64,000 bases of DNA from Owenia fusiformis (Eukaryota > Annelida > Polychaeta > Sabellida > Oweniidae), in NCBI GenBank assembly GCA_903813345.2, contig CAIIXF020000006.1, positions 7,244,989 to 7,308,988 of the forward strand, written 5' to 3'. Below the pieces are notes generated by a model that was not told the DNA's origin, made no database searches, and was given only the letters and a program-made list of their open reading frames with translations. Positions 29,883 to 60,600 of the stretch are shown piece after piece (position 1 is the first letter of the stretch; each line of letters begins with the position of its first letter). The translations under genes were made by a program, and so were the position numbers.

Positions 29883-29923
29883 GTTAAAACCTTAGGCGCC
29901 TAGTTGAAAGCCCATGTTAAAAC
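29883..29923. repeat. Mini-hairpin insertion, partly deleted
   Basis: GTTAAAAC at 29883-29890 and 29916-29923 flank a 25-bp insert ending TAGTTGAAAGCCCAT. The insert centre TAGGCGCCTA is palindromic. The right half matches the mini-hairpin at 31945-31974; the left half appears shortened. Confidence 0.5.
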
Positions 29924-30242
29924 GCATGGTGTAATTCCAGCAACTAAAAATATCTAGTCGATCGACACTTAACATCCGTCATCTTTGATCAAATCAAGAA
30001 ATCTCCTATGGCAGCGTATACCGCTACAGTAGCCGTATAGAATTTCCATATCATCAGTGATTAAGCCAGTTTGTTTGCCATCTGATACCTCTGCAGTAGG
30101 TGTCTTGGAAGAGTGTAGCTACTTAACATTGATAAGGCATAAACATGAATACTTAACTGCTAAAATGTCTAATGGATAAACATAGAAACGTCTTGTGTTA
30201 ATTGAATGTAAAGCTGTGTATAATGCTACATTTTCTAGTCAC

Positions 30243-30752
30243 TAGTACCCCACACAAGTTTTCGATAATAACTTTAACCCGTGATTTGAACACTCGAGAT
30301 CTACTATTTGTTATTGAATTTAGCACACATGAACTAGAGGCAATTTCCACATTGGAAATATGTTTTTTTTTTACTTCAATAACAACAAAAAAGCAACTGA
30401 ACCAAGGATGTCATTAATCCTTTTTAACAAATTTGATGTCATAAAATCAAAATTAAGAATTGTTAAAGTAAGTCTTTATGGTCTTTTTGAATAGTCTATT
30501 GGTAGTCTGCATATAGACAGCTATAAGCTTTGTCTATCAACAAAGCTTTATTTATGAAATATACTTGCTCTTGATATCTAGTTGTCCAGGTCATAAATGT
30601 ACTACAATTTTAACATCATATTCATTGAAACAATGTAACGATGGTAATATGTGTAGCATATGGCTAGATTTAATTTAAATTGTAGACTTATAGGGGAGAA
30701 TGTTCAAATCATGGGTCAAAGTTATTATCAAAAACTTGTGTGGGGTACTATA
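30243..30752. mobile_element. Foldback element
   Basis: TAGTACCCCACACAAGTTTT with ATAATAACTTTAACCCGTGA at 30243-30295 is inverted at about 30700-30752 (TCATGGGTCAAAGTTATTAT, then AAAACTTGTGTGGGGTACTA). An outer pair, AAATCAAGAAA...GCGTATACCGCTAC near 29992-30033 and its inverse near 31470-31500, may mark a larger host element. Confidence 0.65.
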
Positions 30753-30759
30753 ATACTGA

Positions 30760-31930
30760 TCCTATAGTAAACTCACACTCTATGTACAGTACTTGTAAAA
30801 TGTCTAAATATGACAAAAAAATTGCAACCGAAAAGGATATGAAGATCACAACAAAAGTTTGCAAAGATATCTATCCCGTATATTCTAATCAACCCCTATT
30901 GAAATCAATCTACTGAAATATTTGTCACTCAAAATAGATTTAAAAAACGGTTGGAAATATTTGAGATAGCAGCATTCTTTCACAGTACTCTACATTAAAA
31001 TTACTGATAGATCCAAGGCTTTAGATGGATTCGATAAATAGTTTTATTAAATGATTAAGTTTGCTACATTTAAAATGTAAAGTGTAACGTATTCTCTTAA
31101 AAGCAGTTTGGTTTCTTCTATTACTGTAAACTCTTTATATTAGCTAAATCTTTCAGAAATAAATCAACAAAATCTCATCCTTTTAAATAATCTAACAATG
31201 ATTTTTTAACAGTATGCATTCTATTTATTTATAATTTGTCAAAAGACTAAGGGAAATAAGATAAATAACATTATTATCTCAAAAACCTAAAAGATGAGAA
31301 ATGAAATATATTTCCCTGTGTACAGTAACACAGATCTGAGTTCTACCAAAACCCTAATTCTGCTTTGAGAAGCAACTTCAGCAACTTGCTGGAATATGAG
31401 ACCACATTAATGTTTGCGTTGACAGCTTAATGGGCCTAGATAGGGATTTAACATGCAGCATAGTTATACTGGTAGCGGTATACGCGTTTCTTGATTTGTG
31501 TAAAGGTTACGGCCGTTACCTTCGCTTGCTACTGACCAGTGTACTGTAGAGACTGACAAGGAAAACCATCATGATCAGGTCTTGTAAAAAACGTTGCAAC
31601 TCTAGCTTAAGAATGTCGAAAATATCGGAATTGTATGGAGGGGACTATGTGTGAAGTAGTCAGAATTTCACTAATTGTACGTTTATAATATTTCCAATGA
31701 TACACTGGGTGGGCCTAGAAAAAAATTGGGCCGAAAAAAAATTTTTGAGCTGAAAAAGGCCTTTAAGGCCCCAAAAAGTGGGAAGTTTTTTCTCAGACCT
31801 AAGTTTTGGCCCCCTTGTTGGTTCCCAGTTCCGCCCCCGTGTACACGTACCAATTTATTTTGATAGTTTATTTGAATATTGCCTTATTCAAATCATATCT
31901 AGGAGGAAGAAAAACCTCCTAATTTTAACG
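30760..31930. other. Intergenic, no gene seen
   Basis: AT-rich sequence without exon signals. Near 31700-31850 a patch with CCCAAAAAGTGGGAAG and CCGCCCCCGTG resembles decayed repeat sequence. Confidence 0.35.
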
Positions 31931-31935
31931 TCTTT

Positions 31936-31983
31936 AGCCTGTCCATGGGCTTTCAACTCTAGTTGAAAGCCCATGGCTTGTCC
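31936..31983. repeat. 30-bp perfect mini-hairpin with 9-bp flanking repeats
   Basis: The 30 bases at 31945-31974 begin ATGGGCTTTCAACT and end AGTTGAAAGCCCAT, with a CT centre. They are flanked by AGCCTGTCC (left) and GGCTTGTCC (right), matching at 7 of 9 positions. Related inserts occur at 29891, 58731 and 59873. Confidence 0.6.
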
Positions 31984-32274
31984 CAATCCGCCAATGGTGT
32001 TCGGATTAGACAAGTTTGACTGTACTACTTCCCTCGGCACGATCTCCATTTCGCTAAACCGATATAACGATGAACAGCTGTTTTTGTACAGAAAATGAAA
32101 GAGGAAAGAAACAAATATTCAGGTAAAATGTAAACTAGTACGAATAAGGGTCAATTTAGACGAATAATATGACTCCTTTTAATTGCTTAAATATTATATT
32201 ATTATTTTAATACGATTATATGAAAATAGAAGTACTCCATTGTTGAGAACGACTCCTTTCAAGTTTCCTAAAAA

Positions 32275-32515
32275 ATTCGAATATTCGATTGGGCCATTCC
32301 ATTTAAAAAATGTACGGGGGGTATGGATGCACAGGCTGAGACACCCCCCCCCAGAATTTTTTTTCTTGCTACCCCCCCCCCCAGAAAATTGCATTCATAC
32401 CACCCCCCCCCGGAAATTTGCATCCATACCCCCCCCCAGAAATTTGCATCCATACCCCTCTCCCCTGGAAAATTGCATCCATACCCCCCGAAACACGCAA
32501 AATCCCCCCTTGAGA
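32275..32515. repeat. C-rich minisatellite, first copy
   Basis: Units such as ACCCCCCCCCAGAAATTTGC followed by ATCCAT are tandemly repeated, preceded by TTGGGCCATTCCATTTAAAA and ATGTACGGGGGGTATGGATG. The second copy of this element at 41590-41970 has the same components with the flanking block inverted. The open frames across it are artefacts. Confidence 0.75.
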
Positions 32516-33102
32516 AACAATATAAAGGTTATAAGTTGCTCCTACCATTGAAATAGGCAATCAGTTTGCAGAATTTACAAATTAGTGTTAAAGGCACATG
32601 TTCATGGAAATACCCACGTTATCGGTGTGTATACAATAGAACCACATGTTATATTTCACAAGTCCAAATATCTGCACCAGCTATGCACATATTTCTTACC
32701 TCATTATTGATTAGTATCCAACAGACTGAGTGTGAACTCAGTTTGTTATCCTTATTTTCTGTCGTGTGGTTATTCACCCTATGCAGACAGAGCCTGTGGG
32801 AAATATTGGGTGCGGAGCAAATGAGCGGAGGGTGCGGAGCTAACGGTCATTTTTGAATTTAAATTTGGGATATTTCTGAAACTAAGCCGTTTTGGGACTT
32901 CAAATATACCAAGATATGTGTATTTGACACCAAATATCAATACAATTGTGAAAATAGTAGCGCAATTCATTCTATAGCGACGCAGTGTGCCTTAAACCTT
33001 TCCCAGACCTATATATTTTGAAATTATCCTTTTAATACTGCGTCCCCAGCATTCATAAAAAATGGTGTTCAAGGTACACTATCTATACAAATTATTTTTG
33101 CA

Positions 33103-33104
<2 letters not shown>

Positions 33105-33142
<38 letters not shown>

Positions 33143-33162
33143 TTAAATTAATTGTCATATGA

Positions 33163-33199
<37 letters not shown>
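33105..33199 (-). repeat. Double poly(A) tail of the LINE
   Basis: Two pure T-runs (34 and 35 bases on the plus strand) are separated by 26 bases, 33139-33164. On the LINE strand both A-runs are followed by GAT (GATCATATG... and GATGCAAAA...). Confidence 0.85.
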
Positions 33200-33201
<2 letters not shown>

Positions 33202-33496
33202 TCCTTCATTCTTATATATGTACATGTAAATGTTAATATAAATATGTACATGTAAATGTAATGCAATTAATAATATAAATAAAATTTACGTAGACAAAAA
33301 AATACACTTATAGTTATGTTGTAAATGTATGTTGACTAAATGAATGTTGAATAAAATTGCAATTGTTGTTGATTGTTGATTGATAAAAGAATGAGTAAGA
33401 ATAAAGTGTATGTAAAACCAATGCAAGGGGTGTGCTTTCCTATCCTATTTTGATGCTGTTTACTATATGTTGTAAAGGGATCTACAATGTTTTTAT

Positions 33497-36400
33497 TTAC
33501 TGCTTGAATATCTTTTGAGCAGTTTTCCATGCTTTGTCATGGGCTTCTAACTTGTTATTCTTCTCTGCATTGCTTCTGCTTATGATTTCCTGGGCTTCAA
33601 CATATTTCTTGAGGCCTGTCATATTTGGTGGTTTATTGTCTAATTTGTTGAGATAGATGTAGTGTTTAACCAAGAGTAGCGTCAGGTTTTCTTCCAAACT
33701 GGTGTTCTCTCCTAGGAAGTATTTTGCTCTTGTCAGGTTTTGTATTTGACACAGTTGGGTGACCGTCTCTATGAATGGTTTGACAGCTATACATTCGTAT
33801 AGTCCATGTTCGATGGTATCCTGTTTGTCTTCTTTACACAATTCACATTGTGGGCTTGTTTTGATTTTCATATTGTGTAGCATTTTGTTGAAAAATATTG
33901 TTCGAAGTAATATTCTATATTGGAAATATCTCAGTTTTGTTTCCTTTGTTGTTATGTATATTCTACAGTAGTTGCTTTTCCAGTTTATATTTGTGTTGTC
34001 TATCGCCTTTCCCCATAGTTGTTGTTGTTTTATTGGTTCTTCAGTGTGGCTTTTTATTAGTATGTTATATGTATCCTTATTCGTCATTGTTTGTAGTTCC
34101 TTTATAGAAATGGATTTTTCTTTCACATCAGTTTCTGTCTCTGGCCTTCTCGGTGTTTTTATTTGGTTTCTCCATTCAGCTGGTATGCTGTGTATGATGT
34201 GGTACCATTGAATGAATGTTGTGTTTATTAAATCAAATTTCCTTTTCAGTGCTTGGTACGGGATTAATTGATTGTCCTCATACAACTGTTTGATATATAT
34301 TATCCCTTTGGATTTCCACCCCTCTATATATAAGGTCTCTCTTCTATTTTGTACATGTCTATTGTTCCAAATTATCTGGTTTTCGGGTGTATGGATGTCC
34401 TTGTACTCCTTATAATGTATTGCACACCATGCATTGTATACGTCCCTTGCTGCTGTAAGTTTGATGTTGCTGGCAATCATCGGATTGATTTCTCTGAGGT
34501 TGTATTCCCATGCATGTTCTCTGATATCTTCAAACTGCTGTTGCCAGAGTATTTTCCACTTACTTTTTATGTTGTCGTCCGTTAATTTTTTAATCCACTT
34601 GAGTTTTAATTTATTAGCAAGTGATGGAATATGCGTCATTTCAAGACCTCCATAAGGTATTCCCCCTCTTAATGTTTTTCTTGCAATTTTGTCCGGTTTT
34701 CCGTCCCATATAAAATCAAATAGTATTCTTTCTAGTTCTTTGGTCATTTCAGCTGTTGGTGCTTTTAACACTGACATTGGATATGTTAACTGTGATAAAA
34801 GTAGTGACTTTATAACCACGATTTTACCCATCAGGGATAGATTTCTTTGCTTCCATATTTGTGCTAATCTTAGTATAGTCCTGATTGGTTTGCTATAGTT
34901 GATTTCTTCTATGTTTCTTCCATCTATCGGTATTGTTAAGCCTAGGAGGTTAATCTCCTTTTCTTCTAGATTCACTCCAATATTTGTGCATATTCTCTGT
35001 GTCTTTTGTTTGTTTATCTGGTTGTCTTTTCCAATGGTTACTACTGTTGTCTTTTCTTTATTGATTTTAAGTCCTGATATCATCTCAAATTTATTAAAAA
35101 GATCTAGTGCATTTTCTAAATATGAGGCGTCTTTAAGGAACAAGCAGGTATCATCTGCATATTGCGAGATTCTGAGTTCTTCGTTTTCTGTTAGATTGAT
35201 ACCTTTTATTTTGTCTGTCTTCCGTGTAGCATTGCTAAGAACTTCTGCACATAGGATGAATATGTAAGGACTCAATGGGCAGCCTTGTCGTACACCTCTT
35301 TCAAGGTTGAAGTACCTGGATGTGAAGCCATTGTTTATTATAGTGCTGTTTATTCCATTGTAGAAAGTTTCAACCCAGGCTATTAAGTCTGTGCCAAAAT
35401 TAAAATACTTCAAGGTTTTATAGATGAATTTCCACTCCAATGAGTCGAATGCCTTTTGGAAGTCGATAGTTGCCATAATGCCATTCTTTCCTTGTTGAGT
35501 CAAGTGTTCCATTACATCTAGTGATAGTCTTATGTTTTCACCTATGTATCTATTTGATATAAATCCTGTCTGGTCTACGTTGATAAGTTTGTAAAGAACT
35601 TTTTTAATGCGTTCTGCTATGGCCTTTGTCATTATTTTGTAGTCGTTGTTAAGTAGGGTTATGGGTCTCCAGTTCTTTATTTTGTTTGGATCTTTACCTT
35701 TTTTGGGTATTAGAGTAATTATTCCTCTTTTTTGTTCTATCGTCATGTCTTTGTTATTTTTTGAGTAGTTGAAGCTTGCACACATTGGGTCTATGATGTC
35801 ATCTACAAATGTTTTATAAAATTCACTGGAGAGTCCATCGCTTCCTGGGGTTTTGTTGTTCTTGAGGTTTGAAATTTGTTTTCTGCATTCGTCTGCTGTT
35901 ATATGCCCTTCACAATTTTGTTTTTCATCTTTGTTTAGTTCCAGGTTTTCTCCTTTTGGGAAAAAGTCTTTATCAAATTTAGTTGTTTCTACAATTCTTG
36001 TTTTATATAATTCACTGTAAAACTTTGCTTGTTCTTCACTTATTTGTTTTTGGTCTGTTATTAGGACGCCTTCTTCATCTTCAATGGCTGTCATGGTTTT
36101 GTTTATGTAATTGTGTTTTTCAAGATTTAGGAAGTATCTTGTTGGCTTTTCTCCTTCATCTACCCATTGACATTTACTTCTAAAGATAGCGCTTTTAGCC
36201 TTCTCTTCTTGCATTAAGTCTATTTCGTTCCTTATTTTTTCAGCTCTGTCTGTTAACTTCTGTCTTTCTGGATCGGCGAGTGATTTATTGTTTTCCTGAT
36301 GTTCAATCATAATTACTTGGCCAATTTTAATATCTAGTTCTTGTTTTTTCTTCCTCTTTTTCTCTGTTGCGTAGCGTCTTGTCTCCATTTTAATGTTAAA

Positions 36401-37282
36401 TTTGATTAATTCCCATAAACTATTTGGGTTGAGGTTTTCATTGTTCTGCTTTACATTGTTGATTATTACTTTTATGCTTTCTACATATTCTTTGTCTTTG
36501 AGTAATGTGTTGTTCAGTTTCCAGATGCCCGGTCCCCTCCTCTGGTTTAATAATTTGAGTTCAAGTTTTACTGGTCTATGGTCAGCAATTTTCCTTTTCA
36601 CCATCGTTTCACTTAGAATCTCTGTATTCTTTGTTTGTTGGTAGATGTCTCTAGTTACTAGAAAATAGTCTAGTCTACATTTAATTGTGTTGTCGTGATT
36701 GTTCCAAGTGTATTTTCTACTATGTGGATGTTTTTGTCGCCATACATCGCATAGGTCGTGTTCCTCTATCATATTTGTAATAAGCGCCCTTGTTTTGATA
36801 TGTGAAGCTTGTCTTCCACCTTCTTTGTCCTTTGATATATCTAATGGGACATTGAAATCTCCTCCAATAATGATTGAGTTTTCATTTTTGTCTCTTAGTT
36901 TTTCTTTAATATTTTGAAATAGATTGCTGTCGTCATGGTTGTGGCCGTAAACATTTACCAGTGTAATGAGTTTGCCTTTTAAGAGGCAGTCCATGATGAT
37001 GAATCTCCCGTCTTTGTCGATATCACAGTTTATGATTTCAGGGTTAGGAATACATTTTTTGTTTATTAATGTTGCTACTCCAACTGAATTTGTAGCTGTA
37101 GTTGTGAAGTAGGCTTCTCCTCCCCATTGTTGCTTCCAGTTCTTGTCTTGCTCTTTTCCGCAGTGCGTTTCTTGTAAGAATGCGATGTCAAAATTATCTT
37201 CTTGTATATATGTAAATATTTTTTTACGTTTGACCTTGTCCTGTAGACCCTTTACATTAACTGATACTATTCTAATTGACAT
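33497..37282 (-). CDS. LINE ORF2: AP endonuclease and reverse transcriptase, 1261 residues
   Basis: This is the enzyme of target-primed reverse transcription: it nicks genomic DNA and copies the LINE RNA at the nick. The N-terminal ~240 residues are an apurinic-type endonuclease, with VNVKGLQ, FLQETHC, GGDFNVPLD and ADHRPVKLEL. The RT follows with LIPKKGKDPNKIKNWRPITL, TIDFQKAFDSLEW, GVRQGCPLSPYIF and the catalytic QYADDTCLF at about residue 709. The C-terminus carries the cysteine-histidine motif CELCKEDKQDTIEHGLYEC near residue 1155. Length and order fit full-length L1/Tx1-group ORF2. There is no stop or frameshift and all key residues seen are present, so the copy is young or still active. 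Confidence 0.95.
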   Translation of the reverse strand: MSIRIVSVNVKGLQDKVKRKKIFTYIQEDNFDIAFLQETHCGKEQDKNWKQQWGGEAYFTTTATNSVGVATLINKKCIPNPEIINCDIDKDGRFIIMDCLLKGKLITLVNVYGHNHDDSNLFQNIKEKLRDKNENSIIIGGDFNVPLDISKDKEGGRQASHIKTRALITNMIEEHDLCDVWRQKHPHSRKYTWNNHDNTIKCRLDYFLVTRDIYQQTKNTEILSETMVKRKIADHRPVKLELKLLNQRRGPGIWKLNNTLLKDKEYVESIKVIINNVKQNNENLNPNSLWELIKFNIKMETRRYATEKKRKKKQELDIKIGQVIMIEHQENNKSLADPERQKLTDRAEKIRNEIDLMQEEKAKSAIFRSKCQWVDEGEKPTRYFLNLEKHNYINKTMTAIEDEEGVLITDQKQISEEQAKFYSELYKTRIVETTKFDKDFFPKGENLELNKDEKQNCEGHITADECRKQISNLKNNKTPGSDGLSSEFYKTFVDDIIDPMCASFNYSKNNKDMTIEQKRGIITLIPKKGKDPNKIKNWRPITLLNNDYKIMTKAIAERIKKVLYKLINVDQTGFISNRYIGENIRLSLDVMEHLTQQGKNGIMATIDFQKAFDSLEWKFIYKTLKYFNFGTDLIAWVETFYNGINSTIINNGFTSRYFNLERGVRQGCPLSPYIFILCAEVLSNATRKTDKIKGINLTENEELRISQYADDTCLFLKDASYLENALDLFNKFEMISGLKINKEKTTVVTIGKDNQINKQKTQRICTNIGVNLEEKEINLLGLTIPIDGRNIEEINYSKPIRTILRLAQIWKQRNLSLMGKIVVIKSLLLSQLTYPMSVLKAPTAEMTKELERILFDFIWDGKPDKIARKTLRGGIPYGGLEMTHIPSLANKLKLKWIKKLTDDNIKSKWKILWQQQFEDIREHAWEYNLREINPMIASNIKLTAARDVYNAWCAIHYKEYKDIHTPENQIIWNNRHVQNRRETLYIEGWKSKGIIYIKQLYEDNQLIPYQALKRKFDLINTTFIQWYHIIHSIPAEWRNQIKTPRRPETETDVKEKSISIKELQTMTNKDTYNILIKSHTEEPIKQQQLWGKAIDNTNINWKSNYCRIYITTKETKLRYFQYRILLRTIFFNKMLHNMKIKTSPQCELCKEDKQDTIEHGLYECIAVKPFIETVTQLCQIQNLTRAKYFLGENTSLEENLTLLLVKHYIYLNKLDNKPPNMTGLKKYVEAQEIISRSNAEKNNKLEAHDKAWKTAQKIFKQ

Positions 37283-37623
37283 TTATACAGATTTGTTATG
37301 TTACCCTTGCATTGGTTTATACATTTAATTATTATTTTAATTGAAATAAATTTTGCTGAAATCTTATATAAAGAATGTTGCTCGTAGAGCGTATTGGGAT
37401 GATAGTGGAATTCTACCATCTCAATAAGAGGTCGAGATAAAAGCTTTAGGAGTGCGTTGAACTTACATTAAAGAGGCAGGTTTAAATAAATTCTTACTGT
37501 TTGATTCTAACTCAAAAGTTGTTGAGAATTTGATTTGCTGTACGCTAAAAAAAAAATAGTTTCGTAAATTGAATAAAAGTTCAGTTTTAACTAATGTCTA
37601 TTTTGATCTGTAAGGGTAAAGAA

Positions 37624-38547
37624 TTATTTTTTGTTCAATCTCTTTGTGATGATTTCTTTGTATATATCGTCCATATTTACTGGATTGCCGTCAATATATA
37701 CTCTAACCCCTACCCACTTGACCTTCTTTCTTTGTTGTTTGGCCTCTTTTGTATATAATTTGTAGGCTAGGTTTTGAATTGCACGGGCATCTTCAGGTAG
37801 GTCTTCTCCAATTCTCACATTGCTTTTTGCTTTCTTGGACCAGACTAGCCTTTTAATCGCATTCGCTTCCTTTTCCGATTCGAATTGTATTAGTACGGGT
37901 CTTGGTCTCTGTGATTTTCCTCCTTGTACGCTGGTAGTGGTAGGCCGCCCGATGCGATAGCAATTTTGAACTGTGGTGTGAGCTCCCTCGTTGAGCTGCT
38001 GAAGACGTGATTCAACAGCTTCTTTTAGATCGGTGTTCTCTTGATTTTCCGGTAGGTCAAACATTATTAGGTTTCTTTTCTTGTTGATAATATCGAGCTC
38101 TATGTCTCTGATAAATAACTCTCTTACGAAACGTAGTTCTTCCGGTTTTTCGAGTTGTGTTTCAATTTTGTCCAGTTTTTTTTCGGAGCTTTCAATTCGG
38201 GCCTCGAGCTTTTGGTTGATTTCATCCACTTTTCGGTCAGTTTTTCTCAATTGCTCGAATAATTCGTCGAATTTAGGGTCCAGTGCTGCTAGAATTACAT
38301 TTGATATTTCCTGATTGTCTGTATTCGTGTTCAAATCCGTTGGGTTTTGTTTTTTGTTTCCGCTTCTTGTTGATGACGCCATCTTGTTTGGATTGTTTAT
38401 GTTAGCAACCGTATTTTCCTTTTTGTTTTCGTTTTTTTTGTGATTGTCGCGGGCAGTCCTTGTGACAAGCTTTCTAAAAAAGGATCCTGAATTATTTACA
38501 GTTCTGCTAGAGTCAGAATTCTGGTTATTTATTGCCGTTTTCCTCAT
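37624..38547 (-). CDS. LINE ORF1: RNA-binding protein, 307 residues
   Basis: The protein would coat LINE RNA. The first ~90 residues are basic and polar (FFRKLVTRTARDNHKKNENK). A heptad-like, charged segment about 95-150 (FEQLRKTDRKVDEINQKLEA, SSEKKLDKIETQLEK) predicts a coiled coil for trimerisation. From about 165 an RRM-like domain begins with NLIMFDLPE and includes NCYRIGR and RPRPVLIQF, followed by the C-terminal region VRIGEDLPEDARAIQ. This is the standard L1-group ORF1 architecture. It stops 341 bp before ORF2. Confidence 0.9.
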   Translation of the reverse strand: MRKTAINNQNSDSSRTVNNSGSFFRKLVTRTARDNHKKNENKKENTVANINNPNKMASSTRSGNKKQNPTDLNTNTDNQEISNVILAALDPKFDELFEQLRKTDRKVDEINQKLEARIESSEKKLDKIETQLEKPEELRFVRELFIRDIELDIINKKRNLIMFDLPENQENTDLKEAVESRLQQLNEGAHTTVQNCYRIGRPTTTSVQGGKSQRPRPVLIQFESEKEANAIKRLVWSKKAKSNVRIGEDLPEDARAIQNLAYKLYTKEAKQQRKKVKWVGVRVYIDGNPVNMDDIYKEIITKRLNKK

Positions 38548-39046
38548 TTATTTGGCATAATACGCACCTCCATCAAACTTCCGTCTCCCTCTACTCTCTC
38601 TCCATGGCAGCTCCATAAACGTAGCTCCGCACCCAATATTTAGAGGGGGCTCATATCTGAAGAACATTTCCGAATTTTTATAAAATCACACAGATACTGC
38701 CTGGCTTCCAAGATGCAAAAATAATTTGCATGGGTAGTGTATCTTGAACACCATTTTTTATGAATGCTGGGGACGCAGTATTAAAAGGATAGTCTCAAAA
38801 TATATAGGTCTGGGAAATGTTTAAGGCATACTGCGTCGCTATTAAATGAATTGCACTACTATTTTCACAATTTTATTGGTATTTGGTGTCAAATACACAT
38901 ATCTTGGTATATTTGAAGTCCCAAAATGGCTTAGTTTCAGAAATATCCCAATTTTAAATTCAAAAATGACCGTTAGCTCCGCACCCTCCGCTTATTTGCG
39001 CCGCACCCAATATTTCCCACAGGCTCTGTCTGCATAGGGTGTTATT

Positions 39047-40780: not shown

Positions 40781-40782
40781 CG

Positions 40783-40900
40783 TCAGAAGGAATGACCATA
40801 TATAGAACGTCGGTCAAATTTGGCCAACGACTGATTGGCGCGGTGAGTTCACAGGTTTATTTTAGTTTGAAAGAGTGAAGACGAAGCTCTCTTTTAAGAA
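40783..40900 (+). promoter_or_regulatory. Candidate promoter: CRE plus TATA box
   Basis: AATGACGTCAGAAG contains a full cAMP-response palindrome TGACGTCA at about 40789. CATATATAGAACG follows about 20 bases downstream, and CTGATTGGCG, an inverted CCAAT box, follows that. The spacing TATA to CRE is compact but plausible. The only candidate downstream frame is the short one at 41247. Confidence 0.3.
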
Positions 40901-41501: not shown

Positions 41502-41589
41502 ATTTCGAAATAATAAACATGACCGAGATTTGGTGTCAGACAAGTTCATACACAAAATACTCCAGAAATACATGTACATTAACTGACTT

Positions 41590-41970: not shown

Positions 41971-41988
41971 TTATTTTTAGCTAGATTA

Positions 41989-42225: not shown

Positions 42226-42228
42226 TAG

Positions 42229-44783: not shown

Positions 44784-44883
44784 AAACACTAGCGCTTGTA
44801 TATTGCGGGAATTGCTTTCCTGGCATGTCTACCCAACCAAATTCACACAAATGATAAATTAATTTCTTTGCTTCAACGGGGTC

Positions 44884-44999: not shown

Positions 45000-46400
45000 A
45001 CAATTTTTTTAAACGAATCTCGTTGTCGCAACCTCTGCGAATCACAACATAACATTGGAATAACGTTGACATCATTGCAAAATTAGGCTAAATATGCGAA
45101 GTCAAGACGTTAATTGTTTAAATGTTTAGCCTATGAAAGTTCATATACAGGTGATATAGATGTTCAAACAAACAAAGTTAAATTATGTTATTCTCATTGT
45201 AAAATGGCGTTTACACAACATACATAGATAGGGGTCTACAATTTTTAAACCAATTTTCTTTATGGCCCATGGGCCTTTTTGAGAGGGAACAACATTTTTT
45301 CAATGGGTGATGAGCGTTCATAAAAGGAAAAATAGCTTTCCCAAGCCAGTGGGCATTTATTTAGTAAAGTTGACATGTACATCTTTTGAAACCAAAACTT
45401 TGGAATCGATCTCTGTGTAATAAATAATTATGATTCCGTTTCGATACATGTTATACATTTAGACTACTAACTACTAACATTCAGCAACATGGCGGGCGAT
45501 AATGAAAAGATAATTCAATTGATTATATTTCGTCAATTATCAAGCGTTTTACATGTCTAAGGTAAGATTTAACACTTTGATATTGGAGCTAAATAATTAC
45601 GTGATAATTTGTGTGACTTTGGTTAGTATGGTAACTATATTTACCAAGACAGGCCAGAAAAGCGTTTACCGCAATTTGTTCCATATAATATCTACGACCG
45701 TGTATGCAAAGAAAATGATAAAAAATAAATATCCAAATAAGAACAAGGAATATCGAAGAACAGCATACAACGGTCGGATTTATATGACTAAGTTTATTTG
45801 GCGTCCTCACTCGCAGTATAGACTCAAGTAGATGAAATCAAAACTCGATTTTCTCCAAGATCTGACCATGACCTAGTCCAACAACATTAGACCTAGCCTG
45901 GGCCTCGTTTCTTATCTGACATGTCTTATGGCCCCGGCTAGGTCTAACCTCCATGATCATTTTGCCCTTGTTGCGCGTTCCGCAGGTTTCGACCAGCGGA
46001 ACTAATTAACACTGAAAACATGGTAATATTACATAAAGAATGTGATTCAAGCATGCATACATACCTTATGAATACATACACACCATCCCGTATCCCCCTT
46101 AGACCCTATTGATGCATAATTACGAAAATATTGGAGACAGGTTTGGAATTTTACGAAAATGTCGGTCAGCTCCGGTAACATCGAAATTGCAAATCGTTTC
46201 AGGAATTGACCGTCATTGCGACACTGCATCAACGAACAGTAGGTTTGCAATTAATAACTAATTTGCGTGTATACAAGCGCTACATAAATCAATCAAAGAT
46301 ACCTGTTATCCTCAAAATTGATCTTTATATCCCGAGTAATCGCGTGATAATTATCAATCTATTTGACAACAATTTCGTTTCAATAGTTTAAATTTTAACC
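45000..46400. other. Upstream region of PIGS, no other gene seen
   Basis: A small hairpin is formed by TTAGACCTAGCCTGGGCC and its inverse at 45889-45949. No exon is evident. The PIGS promoter should lie in the last few hundred bases; I see no TATA box close to the start. Confidence 0.35.
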
Positions 46401-46417
46401 CGGGACGAACAGACACA

Positions 46418-49400
46418 ATGACGGACATGCGGAATGTCATTTTAGAGATTGGTAAGTTTAACCTCATTTTACTTGTATAAATGACCATTTAATACAATAA
46501 TATTGTGTTGAATCGCTTGATGTTATGTGTTTTTATATTGTTGTCAATTAATAAGTAATTTCATGCGCGTTTAATTAATAACTGATAGTGAGAATTTGCA
46601 ACAAATGAAAGCATACCACGGAAGTTAAACCCAATCACGGCAACAAGAACATTCAGATTAATAAATGAAAGCCGTGGTATTGGGTTTAACTTGTTGAACT
46701 AACCATGACCATGCCAAAATTCACCACAAACATTCTATTCCAAAATGTTCCTTACAATGTGCATATCACTGATTGGTCATCTTCACTCCTGAAGTTATCA
46801 GGGCTCTTTTGACTAATCACCGATTATAGTTTTATTTTGGTTCTACATGTAATTTATATTTCGCCTAATCAAACATGGTAGTTTTAATGGAAATCCTCGA
46901 ATTAGTGAAACGACCCATGGGCACTCTTCCAGGGAGCTGTAATGAGCCAGATACTAGACCTGAAAGGGAGGGTGGTATATTCAATGTCCAGTATGGGAAT
47001 CAAACCTAAGACCTTTTGCTCGCAAGATTGATGCTTAACTGATTCAGCCATAAGAGACTGTAATGTAGTAGCGACTTGCTATTGTGGGTCATTAAAGTAG
47101 CTTTTCAAATCTTTGTTCATCTTTTTGTTGTATATAGTTTCAGAGAAGGCCATGCAGGCCTATGCGGCACTGGGTGTTGGCTTTGTGTGTATCATCGTGG
47201 GTTTGCCACTGTGGTGGAAAACAACAGAAGTCTATAGAGTACAGCTACCATATCATGTAATAGATGAGCTAGCAATGAGCAAGGTTAGTAAATAGTGTAC
47301 ATGTACATGTATTGAGTATCCTTTCCACCTGTTTTATTCACCTACTAATGTGAGCAATTCTTTAAGCACAATGTCCTTTTAAACGTGTGGAAAAATGTCA
47401 AATGCATACTTAAATTTTTAAATCAATTTTTAGATTCCATATGGATTGTAATCCAGAGAAAAAGACAATTCCTTGCATTGAATTATCTAATGAATCATAA
47501 GGTTTTTTGTGGCAGACATTTGAATTGCATTTGAACTACATTTGACAATAATTTTTAGGTAATTGTCCCAATCTGTGAAATGTTCGCACCTCAAGTTTTT
47601 TCGTATCTATTTCCAGTTGAGTACTACTATAGATGTCACTGTGGTGATCTATGAGGAGAATCTCAGTAAAATAGACCTGGCAAGGTTTGGGGAAGATCTC
47701 AAGAATTCCTTAAACAATGGTAAATATTAATTACAGCAATAACTCCAAATATAAACAATAAGAATTATGTAATTCCAGTAACATATTAAAGCTTACATTT
47801 TAAAGCCTACCATTTTAATGATGTTTCAGGGACAGAATTTGAAAACTTTAGTATTGTGTACAAAGGAAATATTCGGAAAGCATATGATGAGGAGAGACAA
47901 GTTTACGAGGCTGCAAAAACATTAGAAGGTAAACATGCTAAAAGTTTAGGAAGAATCCATGGTTCTTGTGTCATTATGTGTTAAACTTTATGGCACTTGA
48001 TAACTTTTGATGTAAACTTTAAGATATGATCATTCATACAACTGTACTATGTCTGTTGCCATCCTTGCTTTTCTGATTGTTCGAGCACCAAAACATTAAA
48101 TGATGTTCATTAAATGATAAATAATCACACGATTTTAATAATTTGTCACATAATTTGATGTTTGTAGAATTAGATGCTGCCCTATACAAAGTTAAGCTTC
48201 TGAAAGAAAATGGCAAATACTGTATTGTCATCCTCCCATCAACTTCTCCCCTGGCATCTTCCAATATACATGTGGGCAAACAAAGAACAACTTTTCTGAC
48301 AGGTGAAAATGGTAAGTCCTTGTATCACACTGCATTCTCTCAATTTGCATGAACAGAAGTTTATGACATGGTTTTAATCCAAACTAGCACACGATTTGTA
48401 AGTACAGTACAGTTCAGCATAGTACAGTACAGTATAGTACAGTTCAGTACAGTAGAATCATTCATTTTATCTTACAATATCATCTGTCCTTGTACTCTCG
48501 TAATTCTCCACTTTTTCCAGGCTTGTTGTCAGTGTTAGATGATTTTACTAGGATCATAAAGGAAGTGTATGTGAGTGAAGAGAGACTTTGAACAAGTCCC
48601 TAATAGCTGCAAGGGGGGCTAGACAGAAGGTAAACAACTTATTCAGATTTTTAGGGGCCAGTTCAAAATATGAAAATGAAAAGTTAGATCACATCTTTAT
48701 TCCCTCTCTGGTATTTCCCTTAAAGGATTGCCATGTTCATTAACCTGTACATGTCTTCTGTACATTGCATTAATTGCGAGTTGCTTTTAATCAATGGCAA
48801 CTTCAATTGAAAAAAATTCAAGTACAATCAATACCCGATGAATTCATTGAGGTAGCTCAAGCTCTCGGCCTGGTTTATCATTATACGTTATGAGCCTTTT
48901 TTCTTCAGGCGACAAAGGAGAGTATGCGTGCTGTTCATACCACCCCAGAATATGAGCTTACATTCTCATTGCTCAACCCACAGCCTGACATGCTAGCTGT
49001 TGCCTGGCCCATAGCTGCTGCTGTTGGAGGTATGAAACATGATTTAATACAGTGATACTCCCCAAGGCAATAATCAATTGGCCACTGCAGTAGAGTGCGG
49101 GAAAAGGGTCTCAACTCTGGATAATTATATTGCGAATTCTTAAAGTTAAAACATATCCAAAAACATTTGAATAGAAAATGAACTAACCTATGAGAAAGGA
49201 GAGTTATGAAGAAAAAATGACATGATTTTATTTCATTCAAAAACATTATGTTTAGTTTTCAGACATCAAAGCTTCACCAGTGTTGAGCTGATTCATATCC
49301 TCATAATTCTAACCGACAATGGCCAAAACCTGCTAATTTTCCATAATTTATTTTCATTTTCAAATGGATGCAAAATTGCAAGTCCATTTGGAATATATTT

Positions 49401-52400: not shown

Positions 52401-55400
52401 ATAGGTAAGAATAATGTATTAATATAAAAAATCCAAAGCTTCATGAACTACAGCTTTTGATATTTTCACTTGGAATTTGCTAAAAGGCTGGCTGGACTTT
52501 GATGGTTTTAAACACATCATGTTTTAGTAACAGTTCTACTGTGTGAGGACAGGAGGGGCCATGACCTTTTATTTTATATTGAGATTGTTTACCTATATGC
52601 TTTTTCTCCTCTTTAACTATATACAATGTTACTCATACTTAAGAACATATTTACAATTTATTTACACTATATACATTACATTACCTATACATAATTGATA
52701 ACCTATACACAAATAATGTCTTCTTATAGATACATTAGAACATATTGCAATTGGCCATTGCCATCTACTCATAAGCATCCTTTTTGGCTTATTCATTATA
52801 TGCCCAAAATGGTACAGGGCTTCATCCAGATCGGGTCTTGCATCAAGGCGAATGCTGGGCCAGTCCAGTCATAGTATGGCTTATACAACTTGCTAGTACA
52901 ATGTCTTAGATAGAACTGAATGTCGAGGTGTCATTTTGCGCTTGGCAACCATCTTTCTTTGATGATTTTGTCCCATGGCTCATAGCAGTGGAAATGGCAT
53001 ATTTGGCCTCTCGTGCCTGGAAATAGAATTCAGCACATTTTAATGCGTGATTTTATTTCAGTCAATTATGTTGAATAGGGTTAAGATTAAAAAACATTAA
53101 TAATACAGATAAAAAGGACCATTAATTTCATTGAGTCCAACGTTTCATAAGGAAAAAACTCAGCATCCCAAACCATGATGAAACTGGAAAAATTCATTCC
53201 ACAAGTCCATCAAAGTATTGCATAAATATACAGTGTCTAAGTATGTCAATTGAATACCTACCCTTTTGTTCACTCGATGCAGCGCTCTCTGTAGAATGTT
53301 GCGTGTGTCCTTTTGAGGCATGGAAAACTTTGGGTCATATACTGGTGACATTCTTAGTATGTATTCCATATCACAGTAAGATTTGGTATATATACCATTT
53401 TCCCCAAATTTGTTGAAGTCAATTTCAGGCCATTCATATTTTATCTCAATGGCATCTAAGTCAAGGACTGCATCACTGTCTTCAATTTCTTTTTCTGTTT
53501 CTGATTCAATGTATGGCAAAATTCTATTGCTACGCTTCCATAACATTTGAGTCTCTAACGGTTTCCAGCAGCAGATTTTACTCATTGTATTCCTGATCTT
53601 GTTACTTTTGTTCATAGCTGGCGCCATCGTTATGATTAGTTGTTATTTGTATTTTGAATAGACTATCTTATTTTCTGCAGAATATCAGTGATGTGCTGGT
53701 CAATCTATTTTCTCTCTTCTCTGTTATCCTTTTGTTTACATTTCCTTAGAAACAAAATCTTTATCTCCAGTTAAGATGCATATTGTTATGTGACATCACT
53801 ATATAAACCACTCAATGTTGCTATGAAACAATGGCCTTATCAACAGTCCATTTGTGACATCACAAGTGAATTTGGTTGCTATTTTCAAAGTCCCTAGAAA
53901 CGATTCAATTTATGGTTCTATTACATCACAATAGAAATAGGATGCCTATTTATGATGTCATAATATATTTATTTAAAATGGTGAGGTCATATCAAGGAAC
54001 TCGCTGGTTACAGTCTCTTGTTTGTTTTATTTTGTTACCAATGATTATCTTTATGTATAGGGAATCTTTGCATTGCCATGGTACTTCTTACTAGAACTAC
54101 ACTTTCTGACCAGATTTCATATTGAGGCCTAATGCACTGTTTCATAATTTACCCATGCTGAGACACATGCACATTGTGTATTATACTTCATTGTACTCTT
54201 CAATTCTGTTGAGTCATCTAAGGATTAACGATTGTAAACTGTTGATAGATCTTAGCATGTTGATCAATATACCCAGGCCCGTAGCCAGAGGGGGAGCTGG
54301 GGGAGCGGAAGCTCCCCCCTGGCCAGAAATTCTTTCAAAATCATGCAGTTTTTCACCATTCAGAGAATTTTTTGCATGATTTTTAGCCAAAATTGTGAAA
54401 AAGCTCCCCCCCTGGAAAAAGCTCCCCCTCCTGGTAAAAGCTGGCTACGGGCAAGATACCCATCTGACTGCATCACACTTTTGACCAAAGAGTCTACAAG
54501 AAGTGTGTTTTAAGGCCTATTTATAATATTGCTTAAATGCAAGAGATATACATAGTAGGGTGACATTTTCTTTTTGATTTCTGGTTGAAACTTGCTATTT
54601 TTCTAAAACTTGTTGACAGAATGTAAATTACAAACACTGGAGATAATGATGTGTGTTCAATAGTTTGAAAATCTGTTTTATTAAGAATTGAGTTGAAAAT
54701 ATATTTGCAGGAGTTAGACACATGGCTGCGAACAAAGACATTGGAGAATGTTGCCATGTCATCCACAACATTAAAGTCCCTTGCTCAACTCCTAGAACAG
54801 ATACCCAACATTGTTATAAATGATGATATAGGAATGGAGGTATGTATTAGGCCATTTAATGTTGAATATATCTTTGATGTTCCCTGACTGCTGCCCTCCC
54901 TCTAAGTTTTCAGAAATCAAATAATTAATTTTTAAGTACCCAGAATGTCCCAGATATGTATTTGTAAAAGATCCACAGTTGACACATAAAACTCTGATCT
55001 AAAGCCATATAAACCTGTAATATTAAAAGGAGTTCCTTTTTGTCCAATCAAAAAATTTTCTTTCATATTTAGGTTCAGAATTTTGTTTAATTAGTAAGCG
55101 CAAGCAGTAACATCTTAAAAAATAAAACTCGCAAAAATTACAAGTTCTCATTTGTTTTACTAAAAGTTGAATTTTACTCTTCTATTTAGGTGGAGAAAGC
55201 TGTTACCTGTATACTTAAAAGTCATAAAAACCTAATCAGGGGAAATCTCAGGGATGCCTTTACATACTCCAAAGAAGCTCTAATTGCATCAGGTAAAATA
55301 CTCAGAGAAGAATGTAATGATGTTCATGTTTTTAAATACAAAACAGAATGGAAAAGAGTGGAATTAGCAAGGAGAAAACAGCAGGGTGTGTAGCCTTTAG

Positions 55401-57725
55401 ACAGAAAATCAAAAGTTCTCCAAATTCGCCTCATTCAACTTGTAGGGGAAATGAAAAAAGTATGAACCTAAAATGAAATTAAACAATAAAATTGAAAGGT
55501 CTGACGATATTCTAGCCATTTCACTCTTCAATATTTAAAGGAATTCTCCATGTATGTTTGATTTTCTCATTTTCTATTAATTAAAGTGTAAACATTTTGT
55601 TTGGTCGCTGTACACTCACAAGTTCTTACATCAAATTCCTGAATGCACAACAACGTAAAATATAAATCCATTGAAATAGGACAAGGATCAGGGTGCAGAC
55701 ATGTTCTTTCAATTATGAATGTTCTCTTTCTATGTGTTGAATATATTGTTTTTCAGAAAAAGCATTCTTTGACCAGTCTTTACTGGAGCTGCTGTATTTC
55801 CCAGAAGATCAAAAGTAAGCTTTACATATAATTGAGTTTATGTACCTTTGATGTGATGTATGCCCCAGTACAGTGTCATTGTTGCAGGTCAAACTTAGTA
55901 AACCCTACACATGTATTTAGTTGAAAATTTCAAGTCATAGGCGCATTAATTGGTTATTTAGAACATGGGATCATGTCCTATCCTATGCAATTACACCTGT
56001 AATACCTATGCAATAATTACATCACATATCTATGAGTAATTATCCCAACGAACGAAGTTCGGTAGGGATATAGTGAAGCCCTTCGTCCGTCCGTCCGTCA
56101 GTCCATCCGTCCGTCCGTCTGTCCGTCCAGAAGATAACTCAAATACTAGTTGACGGATTTTCTTCATATTTGGTGGAAAGATGTATTTTGATGAATAGTT
56201 TTACGCAAAAAAAACTTTTTTCAAGATGGCCGCCGCTTTAAAAATGACGGGACTTTTTCGCAAAAATCATAAATTTTTCATTCTAAACCAAAGTAATTAA
56301 TATTATTGTTTGAAACTTTGGTAGTAAATTCGCAACATCTATCTATTTCACATATATTCCAAGTTTTTCATCCTGACCCCCAGGGGCCGTGTATGGGGGG
56401 TCAGGAAAACAGAAATTTTCGCTAATTTTTAGATCTTTCTGAAGTATAGCTTTATTATACTCAAATGAAAGGCAATTAAAAGCAGATTGCAAATATTGTA
56501 TCTTTTTTCTGATTCGAGCCTCGTAAAATTCAAAATGGCCGTCTAATGTACGATTTCGCAATAATTTTTCGATCCCTTCAAAGTATGGCTATATAATACT
56601 CAAATTGAAGGAATTTTGGAGTAGATCACAATTATGGTAATATTTTCAGATTTGTACCTCAGAAAATTCAAAATGGATTTTTTCAAGATGGCCGCCGCTT
56701 TAAAAATGACGGGACTTTTTCGCAAAAATCATAAATTTTTCATTCTAAACCAAAGTAATTAATATTATTGTTTGAAATTTTGGTAGTATATTCGCAACAT
56801 CTATCTATTTCACATATATTCAGTGTTTTTCATCCTGACCACCAGGGGCCGTGTATGGGGGTCAGGAAAACAGAAATTTTCCCTAATTTTTAGATCTTTC
56901 TGAAGTATAGCTTTATTATATTCAAATGAAAGGCAATTAAGAGTAGATTGCAAATATTGTATCTTTTTTCTGATTCAAGCCTCGTAAAATTCGCAATAAT
57001 TTTTCGATCCCTTCAACGTATGGCTATATAATACTCAAATTGAAGGAATTTTGGAACAGATCACAATTATGGTATTATTTTTCAGATTTGTACCTCAGAA
57101 AATTCAAAATGGCTGCTTTGCAGGAATTCGCAATTCTAAAATCTAAATTTTTCAATTTTAACCAAAGTAATGAGTATAATTGATTGGAATTCGGTAATTG
57201 ATATTTTGTTCGTTGGGATTTGCTACTCCGCGGAGTTGCCATCATCTAGTTAGAATTTGATTGAAATAAAACATGACAGTATAAGACTGCTGTAGGCACC
57301 AGGTAGTTTAGATGTAAATAAATGTTTCAGTTATGTTATAAAACTCAAGCAACTATTGAGTACTGTACAAATATTTTACTTTCAATGGGATTATCAGAAA
57401 ATAAAAAAACAATATTAGTACTTTCTGAAGGAATTTTTCCTCAAGTGGATGCAAAATTCTCATTTTTACAATTTTGAACAAAGTTTGACAAAATATTTTC
57501 AAACTTTTCCCTAATATTTAAGTGTCCTATAATCTTTGTTGCTATTTCTGTGCATTTAAAAAATAATACTTGTAAATCATATTAAAACTATATAATGTTT
57601 TTCCTTTCAGATTTGCAATCTACATTCCATTGTTCCTACCTATCAGCATTCCAGTCCTCATGTCAATACTGCAAGCTGTTAAATGGTTCAGATCTCCAAC
57701 AAATAAAGTCACAAAACAGGAATGA
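46418..57725 (+). CDS. PIGS: GPI transamidase component PIG-S, 15 exons
   Basis: PIG-S is a subunit of the ER GPI transamidase (with PIGK, GPAA1, PIGT and PIGU), which attaches GPI anchors to proteins. Exons: 46418-46451, 47138-47283, 47617-47719, 47830-47928, 48168-48311, 48521-48629, 48909-49029, 49978-50148, 50529-50618, 50945-51117, 51480-51536, 54711-54839, 55190-55292, 55757-55814, 57611-57725. All have GT-AG borders and phases that join. The product is about 550 residues, against 555 in human. An N-terminal membrane segment precedes [10 protein letters not shown] (residues 33-42). The lumenal part includes [56 protein letters not shown] and [16 protein letters not shown]. The second membrane segment is [17 protein letters not shown] near the end. 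Exon 6 needs one extra base near 48590 to stay in frame; an earlier donor TAT|GTGAGT at 48571 would restore the frame but drop about 20 residues. Introns hold a SINE, three MITEs, a nested gene and a Helitron. Confidence 0.95.
46915..47056 (-). mobile_element. tRNA-derived SINE fragment in PIGS intron 1
   Basis: On the minus strand TGGCTGAATCAGTTAAGC (47050-47033) resembles a Pol III A box and GGTTTGATTCC (47006-46996) a B box, with a stem-loop TTGCGAGCAA between. The spacing fits a tRNA head. The tail (ATACTGGACATT..., CTGGAAGAG) does not. It is unlikely to be a functional tRNA. Confidence 0.5.
48406..48455. repeat. AGTAC microsatellite
   Basis: Imperfect iterations of AGTACAGTTC and AGTACAGTAT in PIGS intron 5. 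Confidence 0.7.
49420..49906. mobile_element. TTAA-target MITE in PIGS intron 7
   Basis: It begins AGGCCCACTTTGGGAATTTT, ends AGTATAGTGCACCT, and is flanked by TTAA at 49416-49419 and 49907-49910. The interior shares CTTTCATTTGACGCCAACA-type and TGCATGCATGTCTAATGATC sequence, inverted, with the copy at 10721-11432. Confidence 0.82.
51675..52188. mobile_element. pogo/Tigger-like MITE in PIGS intron 11
   Basis: The ends are CAGTAGAACCTGCTAAGTGG and its inverse ACACAGGTTCTACTG, each next to TA (51673-51674, 52189-52190). Internal repeats AAGTGGAACACCTC and AAGTGGAACGC are typical of pogo/Tigger termini. No transposase. Confidence 0.82.
52906..53627 (-). CDS. Hypothetical two-exon gene nested in a PIGS intron
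   Basis: I do not recognise this gene. Exon 1 is 53627-53262 and exon 2 is 53016-52906; the junction is AAA AGG|GTAGGT to TTTCCAG|GCA CGA, phase 0. The joined product is 158 residues. It begins [17 protein letters not shown], is basic, then has an acidic middle ([20 protein letters not shown]) and a conserved-looking region [39 protein letters not shown] and [18 protein letters not shown]. The tail is Ser/Lys-rich and ends TFSSI-stop. There is no signal peptide or membrane segment. It lies antisense to PIGS within intron 11, so it needs its own promoter in 53.6-54 kb. Good splice sites and no stops argue for a real gene. Confidence 0.55.
54274..54452. mobile_element. hAT-like MITE with 8-bp target duplication
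   Basis: It begins CAGGCCCGTAGCCAG and ends CTGGCTACGGGC. The flanks AATATACC (54266-54273) and AAGATACC (54453-54460) match at 7 of 8 positions, as expected for hAT elements. The interior TTCTTTCAAAATCATGCAGT is shared with two other copies in the window. Confidence 0.75.
56043..57249 (+). mobile_element. Non-autonomous Helitron in PIGS intron 14
   Basis: It begins TCCCAACGAACGAAGTTCGG and ends CATCATCTAG. A perfect hairpin ACTCCGCGGAGT (57225-57236) lies 9 bases before the CTAG. The flanking bases are A on the left and T on the right, with no target duplication. All four are Helitron hallmarks. Near the 5' end is a CCGTCCGTC microsatellite. The block beginning AAGATGGCCGCCGCTTTAAA at about 56224 is repeated at about 56686, an internal ~460-bp duplication. 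Confidence 0.85.
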
Positions 57726-58600
57726 GTTATGTAGAAAGACTAAGAAACTTTCCATATGGGACTTTAAACACTTTATTTATCACCATGATGGTCCGGTCCT
57801 CAGGTCCATAATTCAGGCTGTTTAATAAGACTAAAAATGTAATGAATGTACTAATAGAGGGGACTTCTGGGTCTGCAATGTGATAAAAAAAGAAGGATGG
57901 TATAATTTAACAGATGTTGTATTATTTATTACTTGCTCAAAATATCAAAGTAAAGATAAATACTGTCACAAACAAACCAGTCTAGACCAAGATGGATATC
58001 TCTTTCATAGTTTTTCACTGAATTGCCTGTAAGTTTGACAATCCTTTTCCAAATTAATGTGATAATAAATGTATGTAATGGAAGAAGGAACTATAAGAAG
58101 AATACATTTTTAAGATTTATGACAGACATGAAAAATGGATGTCTTCTAACTGCTCAACAATAATTTTCCATTAAATTATGTTTGTTATGTAACTGACTAG
58201 AACGGCATTGTGTCTAGTTCTTGGAAATCACATGTAGATATTTCCACAAAAATTATCAGTAGTAGAGACACTTTACCATTACATTTTTCATGTCAAGAAT
58301 TGTTAATGTATTACAGTTTTGTAAAAATGATTGAAGAGTTGAAAATGGAATTTTTCACATTCTGTATTTCAATGTCTAGACTACAATTAAATAATAACTG
58401 CAAATTTTTAGGTGAACCTAAGCAGGTCAATGTAAAATTTTCATAATTTTCAATTATTTTTAAATGAAGAATAATCAGTTTTAACTTGATTATATAGAAT
58501 GTATTGATTTGTCTTGTACTTTTATAAAAGACATGTTTTAGTATTTCACAATGTATATCTTTTTAGTTTTGTAAATAAAAGTGGAGAAGTTCAATTGAAT
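57726..58600 (+). other. PIGS 3' UTR and polyadenylation signals
   Basis: After the stop at 57723-57725 the first AATAAA is at 58064-58069 and another at 58574-58579 (GTAAATAAAAGTGG). Either could set the transcript end. Confidence 0.45.
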
Positions 58601-58721
58601 GTCAATACTTATTATACATATACCAACAATATATGCTTTTTTACGTCACAAATACATGTAGTATAATAAAAATTGTGAAAAACTACCAGCTTTGTACATA
58701 ATTATGTAGGACTGGGGATGA

Positions 58722-58769
58722 GTTGAGACCATGGGCTCTACCACCTCTGATAGAGCCCATGTTGAGACC
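58722..58769. repeat. 30-bp mini-hairpin with perfect 9-bp flanking repeats
   Basis: The insert 58731-58760 begins ATGGGCTCTA and ends TAGAGCCCAT. GTTGAGACC stands on both sides (58722-58730 and 58761-58769), 9 of 9 identical. Confidence 0.65.
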
Positions 58770-58799
58770 AAACCTTCTAAAAATTGCCATTCTACTTTT

Positions 58800-60600
58800 G
58801 CTCACATCATATTGGATGTTACTTATTTTCTGGTAAATCTAACAGTTCACAGTTCTGATCATTTTATTAGACTCCAGATTGAAAAGTAACTAGAAGACTT
58901 GGAGTAAATCTAATTACATGGTCAGTTAGGCTATGTGACCTAGTTTCTTGGAAATTAGGTCAAATTTTTATCTAGGTCAAAGGTCAAAATTTAGGTCAAT
59001 TTTTTCAATTTCACAAATTTTCAATTTTCTTTTTAATCCATCAATATTTCTTGCGATGAATTAATTTATAGTTCCCTCTAAGTATTTCAAACATTTTGCT
59101 CACTCTATGTCTCGATGAAAATTTTACCAATTTTGAGAAAGTTGACTCCAAAAAAAGGGTGAAATTCAAATTGTTCCAAATCTATTGAAATTAGTCTCAA
59201 TTTTCTCAGGATTCCGAATCTGAAATCGAAATTGAGATCCAACTTCCGGTTGACCTTCTATGACCTTTTAAAGTTGAAAAACTCAAAAGTTGAAAATCAC
59301 ATATCCCATGTTATTTTCCCATAGAGAAAACTCGTGCTATGCATTGTTTTCAGCATCATTTTGGTCATCGAAAATTGATATCTTCAAAACTTTCAATACC
59401 ATTATATTTTTGAAGATGTTTTAGACCCCTTGTTGAATAATCTTTTCCTGCAATAAAAATCAGAAAAAGGAGATCCTCTTTTGAGTGAATAGCAAATATT
59501 TTGAAAAAATGTTGACATAATTTTTCGAATTGTTTGATTGATATTTTTATCATCATGGGTACTTCACTTGAAAGATAACATATTGTTTTAATAAAAACCA
59601 CTGTATTTATGCCCAGAAAGTACTCATGGTGAGAGATAAAACCGTCTAAAATCACTTGCCATACTGCACGTGGTCTTTTCAATATTTTGCTTTTAAATTT
59701 GGTACATGTAAGAGTAGAACAGATACACTTTTTTCTCAATTTTGTCATCAATATCGGAAGTCAAAATTATTTTTAAAATAAATATCTGGAGTCTTGAATT
59801 GAACTTGTTCAATTTCACCAATCTTACGGTAATTTGACAAAAAAGTTGATCAGAATGTGTTTCAGTAAATTCATGGTCTTTCAACTAGACCATGGTAAAT
59901 TCCATGATTTGATAAGATATCTCAAATCTTTTGCAGATAGAAAATTAGGATTGCATTGGATAGGCATTTAAAGTATTGTCTGTTTTTGACATTTAACCTC
60001 TCTATTCTTCTGTGACACTTTTATCAAGCCTTGTGTCTTCACATCTTTGCCTTCAAAAGTCGAGCAACTTGAAACCTTGCAAATGAAGATGTCTGCCACA
60101 TGGACCTTTATAACAAAGTGCTTACTTTGTACAATTTGCATTACATAAAAAAAGTTATTGCTTTTGACATTATAGTTAATTAAACTGGTTAAATATTTTT
60201 TCAATATGAAAACAATAGACGCTAGTCATCGAATTTGCATATAGAAAATTTTCAAGATTCAGCTTACTAATACTTTTCCCTTGGCCTATAAGAGTCACAA
60301 CACTTAGGTATCCCAGAACAGTTTGGCTTCCGCAAACGCATATGAACTGCATTCTGTTCTAGATACCGTTGTTGTCAGCTAGTATTTGACTATTTGTAGC
60401 TCTGGATAATGTAATAAATGTCCGTTCGTTTTTCTGGCGCATTCACGCTCCTTTGCTAATTGGTATGTTCGCTTTTATGATGCAAAGTGAAAGATCTTCA
60501 AAAAGGAGAAAAGAAAATTTTCGATTTTCATCGACATATTTTTGTTGAAATAAAGCCACAGTTTTGGCTTATCTGTTACAGATTTTAAGTAAATTATGTT
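58800..60600. other. Intergenic between PIGS and the FN3/laminin-EGF gene
   Basis: Repeated AGGTCAAA words occur near 58960-59000. The 128-codon minus frame at 59365-59751 has no family signature. No exon is evident apart from the mini-hairpin at 59864-59902. Confidence 0.4.
59864..59902. repeat. 21-bp mini-hairpin with 9-bp flanking repeats
   Basis: The insert 59873-59893 begins ATGGTCTTTCAACT and ends AGACCAT. The flanks are AGTAAATTC and GGTAAATTC, matching at 8 of 9. The start resembles the hairpin at 31945 (ATGGGCTTTCAACT). Confidence 0.55.

Follow-up and report, generated by a model that had tools for sequence, protein, structure and literature searches.

How do inserts of a few dozen nucleotides, each standing between two copies of a short direct repeat, come to occur at several separate places in one stretch of a genome? 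The question is raised by a 64,000-nt window of Owenia fusiformis DNA, to which all insert and hairpin counts given here refer. Within positions 29883-59902 of this window an original prediction had described four tiny hairpin insertions with flanking duplications, which it regarded as mobile units far smaller than any usual miniature inverted-repeat transposable element (MITE) or, alternatively, as relics of a repair or end-processing reaction. The inserts, each with its pair of repeats, were confirmed at the stated coordinates. As we argue below, they are probably excision footprints of a P-superfamily-like transposon that were closed by end joining, the superfamily membership being one that we infer from a small set of shared features.

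Results

We refer to the four inserts as F1 to F4; they are described on the + strand, and no strand is assigned to the flanking target duplications. F1 is 32 bp long (31944-31975) and consists of 15 nt of a left end, a central CT and 15 nt of a right end (CATGGGCTTTCAACT-CT-AGTTGAAAGCCCATG), such that its right part constitutes the 17-nt end CTAGTTGAAAGCCCATG; it lies between GCCTGTC (31937-31943) and GCTTGTC (31976-31982), the right copy differing from the left by one mismatch. F2 is also 32 bp long (58730-58761) and has the same 15+2+15 layout (CATGGGCTCTACCAC-CT-CTGATAGAGCCCATG), with 11-nt inverted ends CATGGGCTCTA that represent a second end sequence (subfamily); TTGAGAC flanks it on the left (58723-58729) and on the right (58762-58768). 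In F3 (23 bp, 59872-59894) the 17-nt left end CATGGTCTTTCAACTAG directly adjoins the final 6-8 nt of the right end, so that the insert reads CATGGTCTTTCAACTAG followed by ACCATG, between two copies of GTAAATT (59865-59871 and 59895-59901). Finally, F4 (26 bp, 29891-29916) retains a single end: nearly all of the left end is lost, ~9 nt of apparent filler (CTTAGGCGC) are followed by the 17-nt right end CTAGTTGAAAGCCCATG, and both copies of the duplication TTAAAAC are kept (29884-29890 and 29917-29923).

The hairpins are less regular than had been described. Two were said to be perfect over 30 bp: that at 31945-31974 is near-perfect, with 14-bp arms and a 2-nt loop, whereas that at 58731-58760 has 10-bp arms (11 bp when the next base on each side is counted) around a 10-nt centre. 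The inverted arms of the hairpin proposed at 59873-59893 are real, but they are only 7 bp long (8 bp counting the next base), and the insert at 29891-29915 has one end only and forms no hairpin.

When the element is read as CATG...CATG, the boundaries shift by one base and the duplication becomes 7 bp long, exact at three sites and with one mismatch at the fourth. At all four loci a C follows the left copy and a G precedes the right copy, whereas the bases on the outer sides of the duplications vary (A, G, A and G on the left; C, C, C and G on the right). Because the terminal C and G are constant at every locus while the outer neighbours vary, we assign them to the insert, which reduces the 8-9 bp originally proposed for the duplication to 7 bp. 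With this correction, the proposal of target duplications around transposon-derived sequence is borne out at four loci, each of which has the arrangement expected of a P-superfamily footprint, i.e. two copies of a 7- or 8-bp duplication around a scar. A duplication of 9 bp would make for a Mutator- or Merlin-like reading. This candidate was rejected, as at three of the four sites the match fails at a base outside the 7-mer.

Read inward from the outer edge, the right ends of F1 and F4 are identical over exactly 17 nt. The left end of F3 differs at one position from the right end of F4 over 17 nt, and at one position from the right end of F1 over 18 nt; the last of these 18 bases in F3 can be explained from its own other end. 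At these three loci, then, no more than 17 nt of each element end are retained. The inner junctions vary from locus to locus, in keeping with joins that are made by microhomology, bluntly or with filler: two inserts are 32 bp long, one is 23 bp and one is 26 bp with filler, and the two independent 32-bp inserts, F1 and F2, fit 17+17-2. Since the outer ends agree, the inner junctions differ and the shared part ends at ~17 nt, we read the inserts as repaired excision sites and not as mobile micro-units. The alternative offered originally, in which repair or end processing left the inserts behind, thus comes close to the best explanation.

If the 21-32 bp units had themselves been moved by a transposase, as true micro-MITEs, several loci would be expected to have inverted repeats between target duplications, as is seen. 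However, MITE copies should be alike over their full length between the duplications, whereas here the ends agree and the inner sequence and length differ at each locus, and F4 is without one end with its duplication still present. Furthermore, transposition of the Drosophila P element is reported to need at least 138 and 216 bp at the two ends (PMC1562414); for the Anopheles P element less than 100 bp of end may suffice, as inferred in the same source. We consider true micro-MITEs highly improbable. As for the two readings offered originally, the one that invokes mobile units is probably wrong and the one that invokes a repair relic is probably right.

Short hairpins are common, and the four loci could in principle be chance hairpins, or palindromes made by template switching during replication, that happen to have repeats on their flanks. 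Without any demand for a flanking repeat, the window contains 98 raw hairpins with arms of at least 8 and a length of 20-34, nested ones included. A strict scan that kept these limits and also demanded flanking 7-bp repeats differing at no more than one position returned four hairpins, whereas 500 dinucleotide shuffles gave 0.088 on average and never more than 2, with 43 of them containing any. The excess over shuffled sequence that the original prediction called for is therefore present. The four matches are F1, F2 and F3 plus a further hairpin at 7773-7795 that had not been predicted; F4 stands outside this count and is recognised by its 7-bp repeat and shared end. A laxer scan returned the same four hairpins (mean 0.55 and maximum 2 in 20 shuffles), and the pattern ATGGGCT-N5-25-AGCCCAT occurs twice in the window and not at all in 100 shuffles. 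Sliding the right flank by 1-30 bases yielded 16 matches across the 30 shifts, with at most 4 per shift; eight of the 16 fell at shifts 1, 2 and 4, five being nested shifts of the same structures and three lying elsewhere (14950, 54290 and 54291). The 15-mer end, allowing up to three mismatches, has six matches in the window against 2.27 expected; the two that lie outside any insert, at 33538 (two mismatches, inside the open reading frame (ORF) of a long interspersed nuclear element (LINE)) and at 55700 (three mismatches), are taken as chance. Template switching, moreover, is a local process and leaves a 17-nt end that is common to separate loci unexplained. Coincidence or template switching has, in our estimate, the slightest probability of all the explanations considered.

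The additional hairpin may mark a fifth footprint (7766-7802, + strand): it is 23 bp long (7773-7795, ACTGGCTCCAAGTTGGAGCCAGT) with 11-bp arms, and lies between TTTGTAA repeats. Its end sequence, ACTGGCTCC, is unlike those of F1 to F4. A second copy of the hairpin, at 8122-8135 plus 9901-9909, resides in a ~90% identical copy of a dispersed host repeat and is split at its centre by the insertion of an element of 1,759 bp (8136-9894), whose duplication, CAAGTT, is 6 bp long. Because the hairpin is present in both copies of the host repeat, it is probably older than the duplication of that repeat. We keep it apart from the four inserts, as a different family may have left it as a footprint at an earlier time. 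The 1,759-bp element itself has the ends CAGTACTGTCAAC and CTTGACAGCTCTG, with CGCGGGA-rich repeats near both; its CTGTCAAC end resembles CATACCTGTCAAC of zebrafish Pdre2, from which it differs in duplication length (PMC10983969).

Searches beyond the inserts themselves returned little. Self-comparison of the 400-bp flanks of F1 to F4 within the window revealed no second copy of the surrounding DNA with an empty site. Neither the footprint pattern nor the 17-mer of the second end type had any match in viral contigs. The 17-mer of the first end type was found at four loci in viral contigs and at seven in prokaryote contigs; no second end with three or fewer mismatches lies in the 4-12 kb around any of these 11, and we therefore take them as chance. 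Rfam gave no match at gathering scores, and a literature search with the insert end sequences gave no paper. Among the papers listed by searches aimed at earlier reports of natural P-like scars, which did not extend to subscription papers, none describes such scars in its title or in the opening of its abstract, and we make no claim of priority.

The remainder of the window contains gene fragments (UNC-93-like, cytochrome P450 and laminin-EGF) and retroelements, which mark it as animal DNA. A LINE, with an endonuclease and reverse transcriptase ORF (33497-37282) and a 307-amino-acid ORF (37624-38547), lies between 332-bp inverted repeats that are 95% alike (32775-33106 and 38710-39041). An 828-bp stretch (45874-46701) with imperfect inverted ends TAGTYCAACAA and the 9-bp repeat ACCATGACC on both flanks is possibly another DNA transposon. 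Nested inverted repeats with 470-nt arms (100%) and 321-nt arms (99%) form a large and probably recent palindrome at 13130-15492.

Discussion

In this study we have described four short inserts with 7-bp flanking repeats, three of which share a 17-nt end. From this structure we infer past excision, which could have proceeded as follows. A cut-and-paste DNA transposon would have inserted and made the 7-bp target duplication; its ends would have read CATGG(G/T)CTTTCAACTAG, paired in inverted orientation (CATGGKCTTTCAACTAG), with CATGGGCTCTA... as a sister type. A transposase would later have excised the element in P-element fashion, with a stagger of ~17 nt inside each end, leaving on the broken chromosome a 17-nt single-stranded tail of each element end. 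End joining would then have paired ~2 nt (CT, AG) at or near the tips of the tails, or added short filler, and fill-in would have produced a scar of 23-32 bp with the duplications intact on both sides. The Drosophila P transposase is reported to cleave one strand at the element's 3' ends and the opposite strand 17 nt further in (PMC7776569), and P excision in Drosophila yields donor ends with 17-nt 3' tails (PMC2895639).

The same anatomy would be expected from a transposon that does not belong to the P superfamily but likewise cuts far inside its ends, and the assignment to the superfamily draws on just three features, namely how long the duplication is, which letters the ends begin with and the figure of 17 nt, with no transposase among the 19 of 52 ORFs searched. 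Set against this, the 17-nt stagger is unusually long and is described as distinguishing P elements from other characterised cut-and-paste transposons (PMC7776569), and duplications of 7 bp are known within the superfamily, in 1360 and Galileo (PMC3276498, PMC4168063). We consider a non-P origin unlikely, though more probable than either micro-MITEs or chance.

Several observations count against excision scars of a P-like element. F2 has only 8 nt in common with F1 and F4, and 5 nt with F3; four loci are few, and the 17-nt figure is based on three. Pfam found no P-type transposase or THAP domain in 19 of the 52 window ORFs of at least 90 amino acids, one of the tested ORFs having a weak DDE_3 match below cut-off, and no element with these ends was found when the window was scanned for inverted ends next to exact duplications of 7-9 bp. 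Duplications of 8 bp are reported for the P elements of Drosophila (PMC7776569) and Anopheles (PMC1562414) and for zebrafish Pdre2 (PMC10983969), and 7 bp therefore fits only part of the superfamily. Finally, the Drosophila joins described in PMC2895639 come from spn-A (Rad51-deficient) flies; because repair copying is initially favoured when Rad51 is present, clean scars may be a minority product.

What would such scars mean? An odd 'micro-transposon' becomes a recognisable scar, of a kind that can pass for a tiny MITE, and a search rule follows: a 7-bp repeat, CATGG...CCATG, and no more than ~17 nt per end. It is conceivable, although doubtful at present, that scars of P-like elements far outnumber their intact copies in this animal: four scars were seen in 64 kb and not one element with these ends. 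This is a single window that was chosen because of its scars and does not itself establish their density. If that density holds genome-wide, the genome would preserve an extensive archive of past excisions and of the ways in which the germline joined the broken ends, to be read one locus at a time. A real density of end-joined scars without the element would be notable, since Rad51 initially favours repair copying (PMC2895639). If the reading as excision scars is true, such scars would offer a way to tally bygone activity of P-like elements even in genomes that have lost the element or hold few copies of it, and the junctions would reveal the choice of germline repair route in a non-model animal. 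As products they are of a kind already known, here in a natural set, and their interest lies mainly in their density and in the search rule.

That kind of product is best documented for Drosophila P in PMC2895639. Table 1 of that source lists 66 isolates, 44 of which we counted as retaining both 8-bp copies, leaving out the 22 that had lost part of a copy. Inserts in the 44 range from 7 to 44 bp, and the commonest sequences are 30 bp (14 isolates) and 32 bp (5 isolates) long. The 32-bp class, CATGATGAAATAACA(TA)TGTTATTTCATCATG, is laid out as 15+TA+15, and joins with 1-15 nt of filler are listed as well; among the 22 isolates left out, the commonest class (14) had lost most of the ends, together with one base of a duplication, to a long microhomology. 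The Owenia fusiformis inserts resemble these junctions in having two duplication copies, inverted ends, joins with 2-nt microhomology, joins with filler and no more than 17 nt per end. F1 and F2 have the layout of the 32-bp 15+2+15 class, F3 is similar to joins in which one end is complete and the other short, and F4 to those with filler, yet nearly all of the left end of F4 is gone. They differ in that the Drosophila junctions are experimental, come from spn-A flies and have 8-bp duplications and the ends CATGATGAAATAACATA, whereas the inserts described here are genomic relics with 7-bp duplications and end sequences unlike those of Drosophila P.

Other members of the superfamily share individual features with the inserts. 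The 7-bp target duplication is found at 274 of 279 sites of the Drosophila element 1360 (PMC3276498) and in most D. willistoni copies of Galileo (PMC4168063), the latter having very long inverted repeats, unlike the inserts. The insert ends begin with CATG like those of Drosophila P (PMC2895639) and with CAT like those of zebrafish Pdre2 (PMC10983969). The Pdre2/THAP9 element also has short ends that contain TCAAC (CATACCTGTCAAC, compared with CATGGGCTTTCAACT here), but makes an 8-bp duplication, and the apparent likeness of the ends is short (PMC10983969).

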